Both the position numbers and the translations under genes were made by a program. 52,920 nt of DNA from Candidatus Nitrosotenuis sp. GTDB lineage: Archaea > Thermoproteota > Nitrososphaeria > Nitrososphaerales > Nitrosopumilaceae. The stretch lies in contig SCVO01000056.1 of NCBI GenBank assembly GCA_004322465.1, positions 1 to 52,920 of the forward strand. Direction: 5' to 3'. The notes under the pieces were generated by a model. That model did no database searches and was not told the DNA's origin. It saw nothing but the letters and a program-made list of their open reading frames with translations. Of the stretch, positions 4,499 through 9,955 are shown in pieces (the first letter of the stretch is position 1; every line of letters begins with the position of its first letter).

Positions 4499-6886
4499 CT
4501 ATCCAAGATAACGCTCAGGGTTCCACCTTTTCAGTAAAAGCGAACTTCCAGTCACAGAAACAGAGCTGGCAGCCATTGCCATTCCCGCCACAGCGGGATA
4601 GAGTAGTCCAAGTCCAGCAACCGGAATCAAGGCCGCATTATATACAAATGCGTAAAAGATATTCTGTTTTATTTTGCCGACAGTTTTTTTGCTAATCTCA
4701 AATGCAGATACGACACTTCTAAGATCGTCCCGTACTAGTACTACATTGCCCGCCTCTATTGCAATATCCGCCCCACTCCCTATTGCAATGCCGACATCTG
4801 CCTGAGTCAGTGCGGCCGCATCGTTTATTCCGTCACCTACCATCGCAACCTTGTTTTCGCGCTGTAGTTCTTTTATTGCATCCAATTTGTCCTGCGGCAA
4901 AACATTTGCAATTATCTGATTTATTCCAATCTCCTTTGCCACAGTCTGAGCTGTCTTTTCATTATCTCCAGTAAGCATTACCACTTGGATTCCCTTTTTT
5001 GTCAGCGATTCCACAGTGGCCTTTGCAGTTTGTTTTGGGATGTCGAGCAGGCTGATAATTCCAACCAGTTTTCTATTCAAGCCCACCAGAATCGTAGTTT
5101 TTCCTTGCTGCTGCAATTGCGAAATGATTTCCTGCGAGGATTTTGTTTCAATTCCTTCATCCGTCAACAACACTTGTCTTCCTACGACAATTACGGAATC
5201 ATTGTAAACTGCTTTGACTCCCTTGCCAGGAATTGCAACAAAGTCAGTCGGATCTGCAATTACACCGTTTGCCTTTTGTAGAATTGCCTTGCCAAGCGGA
5301 TGCTCTGAGTTTTTTTCTGCAATTGCGGCAATCTCCAATATTTTGCTCGAGTCAAACTCAGGATCAACTGATACGGTGTCGGTGACTTGCGGTTTTCCTT
5401 CTGTCAGTGTTCCCGTCTTGTCAAACACCATAACAGTCACCTTGCTTAGCACCTCTAATGCCTCGCCGTCCTTGAACAATACTCCGTGTTGCGCAGCTTT
5501 GCTCATTCCAACCATTACCGCAGTTGGCGTGGCAAGGCCTAGTGCGCACGGACACGCGACTACAAGAATTGCGACTGCAGGAATCAGAGCAGCTGCAACG
5601 TGCCCGCCAAACGGAACAAAGTACCATCCAAGAAACGTAGCTCCGGCAATTCCCATTACCATCAGTGCGAAGTAGCCGGCAATTTTGTCAACCAATCTCT
5701 GAATTGAGGGCTTTTTTCCCATCGCATCCTCTACCAGATTGATTATTTGGGAGAGGACTGTATCTTTTCCAATCCTTGTTGCGCGAATAACAAGTGCGCC
5801 TTCCTTGTTTACAGTTCCGCCAATCACTGGATCACCTGTTTTTTTTCCAACAGGCATTGACTCTCCGGTAACCATTGATTCATCTACTGCAGAGTGCCCA
5901 TCAACCACAATACTGTCAACTGGTATTCTTTCTCCAGGCCTAACCGTAATGAGGTTGCCAAGACTTATCTGCTCTATTGGGATCTGGACTTCGCCATTTT
6001 CTGTTTTTAGCGATGCAGTCTTTGGCTGTAACTCTAGCATTTTTTTTATGATTGACGAGGTTTTTCCCTTGGTTTTGTTTTCAAGGTATTTTCCCAGTAT
6101 GATGAATGTGATCACGACTGTAGACGCGTCATAGTAAATTTTATCCCAGGACGGGTTTGGGAATGTGTTATACAGGCTGAACAGGTATGCTGCAGTCGTT
6201 CCAACCACTACCAGAGTGTCCATGTTTGCAGACCTTAACTTGGCAATCCTGAATGCACCAGAATAGAATCTGCTTCCGGCTACAAACTGGACCACGCTTG
6301 CACATGCGAGCATCAGATATGCTGCAACGTTACTTCCGGCCAAGGGGATAAACGACAGATACTCAGGATATCCAAAAATCAAAATTGGAATTGTAAACGC
6401 GATGCCAATAACAAATAATTTTCCAAGTTTTTTTGCCTCTAGTTCCTCTGCCGATTCAGAAAGATCCTCAGACAACACATGATAGCCATTTTTTGTAATG
6501 AACTGCCTAATATCAGAAAGTGAAAGCAGTGCTGGGTTGTATTCTATTATCCCCTGGCTATTGCCATAATTTACGGATACACTCCTTACCCCGTCCAGTC
6601 TTTCCAGTTTTTTTTGAAGACTATGCGCGTCTCCAGAATCTGTGATTCCGGCAATTTTTACTGTAAGTTTTTCATAGACCACATGATACCCTGCACTTTG
6701 TATTGCTTTTTCGATTGTTTGCAGGCTGACAGCAGATGGATCAAACTCTAGATCAGCCTTTTGTGATGCGAGGTTTACTTCGCATTTTGTGACACCGACT
6801 ACCTTTGCGACGTATTTTTGGATAGAGTTTACGCATCCGGCGCAGTGCATGCCGCCAATTTTTAGCACGGTCTGCTTTGTTTCCAT
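4499..6886 (-). CDS. copA: Cu+-exporting P1B-type ATPase
   Basis: [11 protein letters not shown] motif, CPC in [40 protein letters not shown]. Confidence 0.95.
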
Positions 6887-6926
6887 TATACGGTATGATG
6901 ACTTTACAGTGTACTTAAGATCTGTA

Positions 6927-6942
6927 CTTTACAATTGTAAAG
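6927..6942. promoter_or_regulatory. Perfect 16-bp palindrome CTTTACAATTGTAAAG between copA and TRASH regulator
   Basis: Sequence equals its own reverse complement; lies between divergent genes. Confidence 0.65.
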
Positions 6943-6981
6943 CCGGTAAAACTGATAAGGACCAAAAGCCATACAGGTGTC

Positions 6982-7419
6982 ATGCCATTCAAGCTAGACG
7001 ACGTTGATTATGCAATACTTGAATCCCTAAACAAGGACGGAAGAAAGTCGTTTAGGCAGATTTCAAGAGAGGTCAAGGTAAGCACTCCAACGGTAAAGGC
7101 GCGATACGAAAGGCTGGTAAACATCGGCCTGATAAAGGCAGTTTTACCAATCATAGACTTTGGCAAGCTTGAAAACAAAACAGGCATAAAGCTAGACGAA
7201 ATACGCTCAAAAACCATCAAAAATCGCGATGTAAAGATAACAAGGGGCCTACTTGTCAAAATGTCTTGCGACTATTGCAATGGGCCGGTTCCTGAAAAAC
7301 CCAGTATTTTGAAAATTGCAAGTTTTGAGAGATTTTTTTGCTGTACATCGTGCAGGGGCTTGTATAAAGAAAAATACAAAGGTCGGATTGAAAAGTTATC
7401 AGGCAAGACTGCGATTTGA
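6982..7419 (+). CDS. Lrp/AsnC-type HTH regulator with C-terminal TRASH metal-binding domain (copper regulator)
   Basis: AsnC HTH (DDVDYAILESLNKDGRKSFRQISREVKVSTPTVKAR) plus CDYCNGPV...FFCCTSCRGLYKEKY TRASH motif; divergent from copA. Confidence 0.88.
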   Translation: MPFKLDDVDYAILESLNKDGRKSFRQISREVKVSTPTVKARYERLVNIGLIKAVLPIIDFGKLENKTGIKLDEIRSKTIKNRDVKITRGLLVKMSCDYCNGPVPEKPSILKIASFERFFCCTSCRGLYKEKYKGRIEKLSGKTAI

Positions 7420-8923: not shown

Positions 8924-9238
8924 TTATTTGCCCAAAAACGACAGAATAGGCATTGCGTCCCACTGATACAGGTAGTAGTCCAGCACGTTTGAGCAAATCT
9001 TGTCATAATTGTCGTAAATTGAGTTCGCTTCTTCGTCAGTGGCCTCGAATATCGCGATTCCCGTCTTGTTGTCGCTTAATGCGCCGGACCACATTATTCT
9101 TCCTTGGGATTGCCAATCATCAACTAGGCTACTTATTTTTGGCCTTATGTTTTCTACATCTTGCTCATTTGTGGATTCTCTTAGCGTACTCACAAGAACC
9201 CACGGTTTTCTTTGAGAAATTAATTCTGTTTGACTCAT
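8924..9238 (-). CDS. YCII-like small protein
   Basis: 104 aa ORF; RPKISSLVDDWQSQGRIMWSGALSDNKTGIAIFEATDEEANSIYDNYDKI resembles YciI-type ferredoxin-like fold. Confidence 0.5.
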   Translation of the reverse strand: MSQTELISQRKPWVLVSTLRESTNEQDVENIRPKISSLVDDWQSQGRIMWSGALSDNKTGIAIFEATDEEANSIYDNYDKICSNVLDYYLYQWDAMPILSFLGK

Positions 9239-9371
9239 AAGGTAAGAACCATGGCGGAGAGAATTAAGAGTGCTGATGGTTTCATTTCGCTGTTCTTTGA
9301 TTTTGTACTAGTATAATGAAACTATGATCTGTAATGTTCGTTGTTTTTAATAATTACAAACGATTATTGGT

Positions 9372-9506
9372 TTTGATCTTGCAGCAACGGCCATCACGCC
9401 GTTAAGATCAAAGAGGATCACCAGTACAATAACCGTACAGCTTATCCACCAAATCTGGAAAATTGCTATTGGCAGATTTTGATCATTGTACTGGTGACTT
9501 CTCTTT
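9372..9506. ncRNA. Candidate structured intergenic element (three stem-loops)
   Basis: GATCTT(9375-9380)/AAGATC(9404-9409) with AACGGC(9386-9391)/GCCGTT(9398-9403); CACCAGTACAAT(9419-9430)/ATTGTACTGGTG(9485-9496) plus AAAGAG(9410-9415)/CTCTTT(9501-9506); inner AAATCTG(9451-9457)/CAGATTT(9473-9479). Confidence 0.5.
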
Positions 9507-9574
9507 AAGTCAAAGGAAAAAGTATCTTTAATGTCATGCGATTAAGATAAAAATTCTATTTCCTGCAAAGCCAA

Positions 9575-9955
9575 TCAGTCTTGCGTTGCGCCGCACTCGG
9601 TACAGAACTTGGCAGACAGAGAAATTTTGGAGCCGCACTCTGAGCAGAACTTTGTGTCAGAGTCAGATACCTTGTTTATGTTGCCATACATGCTGGTATT
9701 TCTGACAGCGCCCGTTGCTTCGAATTTGTCATCATCGATTATGTTTACTGGTGCAAAGTCTTTTTCCTCAACATATGCCATGATTCTCGGAATGGTATCG
9801 TCCTTGTTCTTTGGATCCGGTATGATGTCTGCTAGCCAGAATGAATATCTCATGAGTGTGAGTTCGGGTGTTGAAAAAGCAAGAGTGTGCGCAGACATGT
9901 AATCTTCTGCTGCAGACTTTCCGTTGAAAACTTTCATGAAAATGCTCATCCGCAT
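9575..9955 (-). CDS. Hypothetical protein with C-terminal zinc ribbon
   Basis: 126 aa; FCSECGSKISLSAKFCTECGATQD tail. Confidence 0.65.
   Translation of the reverse strand: MRMSIFMKVFNGKSAAEDYMSAHTLAFSTPELTLMRYSFWLADIIPDPKNKDDTIPRIMAYVEEKDFAPVNIIDDDKFEATGAVRNTSMYGNINKVSDSDTKFCSECGSKISLSAKFCTECGATQD

Follow-up and report, generated by a model that had tools for sequence, protein, structure and literature searches.

The strongly folding sequence between two minus-strand genes of a Candidatus Nitrosotenuis genome raises the question of what it encodes, since the preliminary description of the locus proposed either a structured RNA or a MITE-like relic. The window, which is the whole stretch of DNA that was analysed, comprises 52,920 nucleotides of a MAG of 1.68 Mb that is 91.7% complete.

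The element and its fold

The element occupies positions 9372-9508 of the plus strand and lies, as had been claimed, between two genes of the minus strand, one encoding a 104-aa protein (8924-9238) and the other a zinc-ribbon protein (9575-9955). The whole of it was assigned as a structured small RNA gene on the basis of a match to covariance model R1, matches in congeners and in other genera, and covariation. Stem-loop A (9372-9412, plus strand) is the bulged first hairpin described earlier, in which GATCTT and AAGATC fall within an outer stem (9372-9380/9404-9412) and AACGGC and GCCGTT form an inner stem (9386-9391/9398-9403). The long closing stem B (9413-9503, plus strand), in which 9413-9429 pairs with 9486-9503, is likewise present. 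The third hairpin of the preliminary description, the inner hairpin C (9451-9479, plus strand), stands in part: its arms AAATCTG and CAGATTT exist on the plus strand at 9451-9457 and 9473-9479, but the hairpin is absent from the minimum-energy fold of this strand. In relatives, the site is closed by another stem, GACCA/UGGUC. Folding gave energies far below chance for both strands, namely -45.6 kcal/mol on the plus strand (z = -6.4) and -53.0 kcal/mol on the minus strand (z = -6.2), and none of 200 shuffles reached the value for either strand. The element contains no ORF of at least 60 aa, in agreement with the statement that no protein explains the structure. A switch between alternative folds, as had been suggested, is not required.

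Covariation, which had been named as a check on the structure, was assessed in an alignment of 39 hits, 31 of them distinct, that had been fitted to the model, and was evident as two-sided changes at 24 of the 28 pairs. The proportion of cells paired was 86.9%, compared with 51.3% and 45.2% when one arm was slid by one column, and none of 500 shuffles reached any of five covariation measures; these numbers lean in favour of the structure, because the alignment was fitted to it. Two-sided changes were found at 7 of 9 pairs in helix 1 (stem A) and at 13 of 15 pairs in helix 2 (stem B). Helix 2 was 94% paired, and helix 3, the equivalent of hairpin C in relatives, was 74% paired, the lowest of the three. 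Nitrosotenuis (GAG..UCACCAGUACAA) and Nitrosopumilus (UCAUUGGAAAAAUUGG) share almost none of the sequence of stem B, and both forms pair. This divergence with pairing kept cannot be a product of alignment fitting. The hairpins of the element are confirmed, and the conserved secondary structure that characterises a trans-encoded base-pairing small RNA is present.

A further motif, UCUGACA..UUUACAAG, is conserved in the single-stranded loop of stem A in copies from outside Nitrosotenuis (A6/A7) and has no recognisable counterpart in Nitrosotenuis.

Distribution, gene neighbourhood and strand

BLAST found the element as a single copy in its own Nitrosotenuis genome (G000). Five congeners carry it at the same address with 79-89% identity and a nearly invariant core; it was not found by BLAST or by model R1 in 11 other Nitrosotenuis congeners. 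Model R1, built from six Nitrosotenuis sequences, gave two weak matches in other genera, both positioned head-to-head with a homologue of the 104-aa gene, and this position supports the matches because the models had no knowledge of the gene. Weak minus-strand matches to R1 also occurred, as a consequence of the palindromic nature of stem B. A search for the linked gene in named genomes yielded 13 loci, at 11 of which, spanning Nitrosotenuis, Nitrosopumilus and Nitrosarchaeum, the RNA lay upstream and divergent. A second covariance model, R2, detected the element in 27 of the 250 genomes searched within the family, and a search of 400 genomes of the class gave no match beyond the family. When the regions upstream of further copies of the linked gene were inspected, seven genomes proved to carry weaker homologues, and G072 a second copy. 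In total, models and inspection yielded 46 copies in 40 Nitrosopumilaceae genomes, and 28 of the 38 model-found copies, the six from Nitrosotenuis included, are head-to-head with the same gene of approximately 100 aa at a distance of 108-170 bp. Additional copies, all of them local or single duplicates, were seen in just a few genomes of Nitrosopumilus (G118, G154, G182, G072). At each of two loci of G118, a second and shorter RNA copy with the same loop core lies beyond the linked gene (L115:2990-3117 and L116:2990-3120, both minus strand). No family of Rfam 15 matches the element, even at E ≤ 10; matches to the U4-like and ST7 families (E 0.015-6.2) fall outside the element, far under their gathering scores, and were rejected.

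The linked 104-aa gene (8924-9238, minus strand), which keeps the same head-to-head arrangement with the RNA across genera, was present in 86 of 250 Nitrosopumilaceae genomes and is therefore spread more widely than the RNA. Its product belongs to no Pfam or NCBIfam family and is predicted to adopt a ferredoxin-like alpha/beta fold, the nearest structures to the model being muconolactone-isomerase-like proteins and HI0828 of Haemophilus influenzae. A weak Pfam match to Intron_maturas2, under the cut-off, was taken as spurious. Elsewhere in the window, at 4499-7419, a heavy-metal P-type ATPase gene and a divergent gene for an AsnC-type HTH regulator that carries a TRASH-like metal-binding domain lie side by side and probably constitute a metal export pair.

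A TATA-like promoter element, TTTTTAATAAT (9344-9354, plus strand), precedes the first stem by about 23-26 nt. An element at about this fixed spacing from stem A occurs in nearly all homologues, with the sequence TTTTTAATAAT in Nitrosotenuis and usually CTATAATAATTT in other genera. At the opposite end, the U-rich run UUCUCUUU (9499-9506, plus strand) is a probable oligo-U termination site, and a similar run closes stem B at the matching place in most homologues. In the plus orientation, the alignment held 66 G-U cells against 31 A-C cells. Together, the TATA element, the U-run and the excess of G-U indicate that the plus strand is probably the one transcribed. An RNA from the minus strand would fold equally well, but is disfavoured by the same three features. 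The TATA spacing, the 3' U-run and the lack of an internal ORF are those of a stand-alone noncoding gene. Of the two origins proposed for the element, a structured RNA is supported by the shared address, compensatory change, and conserved promoter and 3' U-run, and the existence of an RNA gene is well supported. It constitutes a new RNA family, probably of a known kind, that of trans-acting antisense sRNAs, and no earlier description of the family was found in the open-licence literature.

Complementarity to ferredoxin gene starts

The loop segment 9454-9474 has one weak match in most congeners, which is the start of a ferredoxin gene read on the opposite strand. This match, absent from the preliminary description, is the principal clue to function. 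Complete assemblies encode two paralogous 2x[4Fe-4S] ferredoxins, Fd1 and Fd2 (Fer4 above the gathering score). Fd1 starts AUGCCAAUAGCAAUACUUCCAGAC, and Fd2 starts AUGCCAGUAGGAAUUAUUCC in most genera and AUGCCAGUAGCAAUUUUACC in Nitrosotenuis. Neither gene is contained in the incomplete assembly of the window's own organism, and the pairing proposed for this organism therefore rests on its congeners.

The most conserved 10-mer of the element, CUAUUGGCAU, is located in the inner hairpin; its reverse complement, AUGCCAAUAG, makes up bases 1-10 of the Fd1 gene, and the Fd2 start (AUGCCAGUAG) pairs with the 10-mer through a G-U. In the RNA alignment, the best conserved 10-mer, CTATTGGCAT, is the reverse complement of ATGCCAATAG of Fd1. 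It contains the near-invariant seed 8-mer CUAUUGGC (9466-9473, plus strand), itself the reverse complement of GCCAAUAG within the Fd1 start and present in 38 of 46 copies. The seed U opposite position 7 is able to pair with both targets, which have A (Fd1) or G (Fd2) there. Most copies are able to pair with the Fd1 AUG, and their duplex with the Fd1 start comprises 15-19 pairs out of 20. In the Nitrosotenuis copies, that of the window included, the last seed base is G and not U, so that the A of the AUG is not paired directly. The predicted target-binding region extends over 9444-9483 of the plus strand and would pair with the ferredoxin starts, with Fd2 as the strongest partner (-39.6 kcal/mol), as judged from the energies of duplexes between the loop found in the window and Fd2 and Fd1 of congeners and from the background ranking in G008. 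In the RNA, a conserved seed is complementary to the site at which translation of an unlinked mRNA starts.

The pairing was compared with a background of 20 stretches of 20 kb (400 kb) in each of two genomes, G045 (Nitrosopumilus) and G008 (Nitrosotenuis). When scored without gaps against G045, the Nitrosopumilus consensus loop, which differs from the loop of that genome, gave 42.0 for Fd1 and 33.6 for Fd2, the best of 473 other gene starts reaching 27.0, and 0 of 300 shuffled loops were as good. The 20-nt Nitrosotenuis loop gave 35.8 for Fd2 and 31.0 for Fd1 in G008, with 27.8 for the best of 623 others and 2 of 300 shuffled loops as good. With a longer Nitrosotenuis loop, one sampled start scored 33.8, above the 31.0 of Fd1, and 12 of 300 shuffled loops matched Fd2. 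Gapped energies in G008 were -39.6 kcal/mol for Fd2, with 0 of 19,960 background windows as low, and -34.8 kcal/mol for Fd1, with one as low. Those in G045 were unexceptional, 99 (Fd1) and 426 (Fd2) of 19,960 background windows being as low; the 99 belong to an energy of -25.8, and the loop of G045 itself has drifted. Nitrosotenuis loops yielded energies of -32 to -40 with Fd2 of their own clade and of -22 to -27 with Fd2 of the Nitrosopumilus type. At loop position 11, where U, C, A and G all occur, the base tracks the targets inconsistently, some copies being mismatched to both, and a clean trans-covariation of this position with Fd2 was not upheld.

In eight genomes, searched throughout, every match to the antisense pattern with 0-1 mismatches was the Fd1 start, the RNA gene itself apart. 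Because loop and targets are both conserved, genomes do not represent independent trials. Weaker matches (within 3 mismatches), besides Fd2 and the RNA gene, were scattered and mostly located inside genes. Congeners in which no RNA was detected have an equally invariant Fd1 start, and conservation of the target is therefore no evidence of selection for pairing. As a prediction from complementarity, the ferredoxin target is moderately supported.

The TATA elements of the target genes precede the AUG by some 30-40 bases, a position which suggests that the ferredoxin mRNAs have short or absent leaders. Two further features of these genes were observed. The first approximately 24 coding bases of Fd1 are invariant across genera, synonymous sites included and also in genomes in which the RNA was not found (L060-L073). 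Upstream of the TATA box, both ferredoxin genes possess palindrome-like TAACNNNGTTA motifs (L064-L073, L076-L079), exemplified by TAACACTGTTA for Fd1 and by TAACAGCGTTA and TAACGCCGTTA for Fd2, which may represent a shared operator.

Predicted mode of action, alternatives and significance

The most conserved stretch of the RNA is the reverse complement of the ferredoxin starts, and the RNA therefore probably lowers ferredoxin production. The reading preferred here, with a probability of roughly 0.6, is that it is a trans-acting antisense sRNA that masks ferredoxin start codons and so reduces ferredoxin synthesis. An independent plus-strand transcript, of about 135 nt here and about 150-160 nt in other genera, would use stem A and the long stem B as a scaffold, and the inner hairpin would present a loop antisense to the first ~20 coding bases, start codon included, of both ferredoxin mRNAs. 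Since the leaders are probably short or absent, pairing over these bases would cover the initiation site, and translation initiation on such short-leader or leaderless messages would be blocked, resulting in less ferredoxin. Transcription, binding in the cell and repression instead of activation are what we infer from the sequences; iron, redox or copper supply would be a natural guess for the signal. More tentatively, a G-U-tolerant seed in a single loop may mask the AUG of Fd1 as well as that of Fd2 on mRNAs with almost no leader, which would make this the first regulatory sRNA family of ammonia-oxidizing archaea with a predicted target.

The strongest alternative, although itself rather unlikely, is a structured sRNA whose loop has another role, either as a protein-binding site or in pairing with other targets, the ferredoxin match being a coincidence or the relic of an origin from a ferredoxin 5' end. 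The structure, the promoter and the conservation are all independent of the target, the motif in the loop of stem A makes more than one conserved single-stranded element, loop position 11 is uncompensated, and the target scan covered sampled gene starts only. Such a role would nevertheless leave it to chance or descent that the 10-mer with the highest conservation falls on both ferredoxin start codons, that Fd1 and Fd2 are the two best ungapped starts in both clades with the 20-nt loop, and that near-exact antisense matches in eight genomes, besides the RNA gene, all fall on the Fd1 start. Far less probable is a cis-acting leader, a riboswitch or attenuator of a neighbouring gene, as might be supposed from the intergenic position and from G033, where a gene on the same strand begins about 110 nt downstream. 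The conserved neighbour is divergent and on the opposite strand, and not a same-strand gene preceded by the element; the downstream gene is convergent in Nitrosotenuis, downstream genes vary between genomes, and the U-run ends the RNA. The other half of the original proposal, a MITE-like or palindromic relic with no RNA function, is the least credible: long inverted repeats do close a short AT-rich insert, and a few extra copies exist in some Nitrosopumilus genomes, but genome-wide BLAST found one copy in G000 and not the dispersed copies expected of a mobile element, the address is conserved, stem sequences change with pairing kept, the loop and not the termini is most conserved, and a plasmid origin was rejected as the element has no plasmid match.

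Antisense masking of the kind preferred here resembles known systems in some respects. In bacteria, iron-sparing sRNAs of the RyhB type pair close to the mRNA start and in this way lower iron-sulfur protein synthesis. The likeness to these sRNAs (RyhB paralogs: PMC9860832) is one of action only; homology is not claimed and control of the present RNA by iron is not implied. Among archaea, sRNA162 of Methanosarcina mazei (PMC3510493) is described as a trans-acting RNA with an exposed single-stranded region that masks the translation start region of its target, specifically a ribosome binding site in a bicistronic message, and it also has a cis target. Masking of a translation start by a trans-acting archaeal sRNA is proposed in both cases, whereas the predicted site here is the start codon of ferredoxin mRNAs, probably with short leaders, in another phylum. 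The sRNA132 of Haloferax volcanii (PMC6560208) is likewise an intergenic archaeal sRNA, involved in nutrient-supply regulation through a phosphate ABC transporter operon, and differs in lineage and target. Both RNAs are likened to the present one by these descriptions, not by sequence. A search of the open-licence literature for thaumarchaeal sRNAs yielded nothing relevant, and no described regulatory sRNA was found there for ammonia-oxidizing archaea.

In the ocean and in soils, ammonia-oxidizing archaea belong to the most abundant microbes. The predicted target lies in central electron transfer, which makes sRNA control in this phylum testable in cultured strains. If true, the proposal would mean post-transcriptional control of iron-sulfur electron carriers in these archaea, and would show how antisense control can act on messages with little or no leader.
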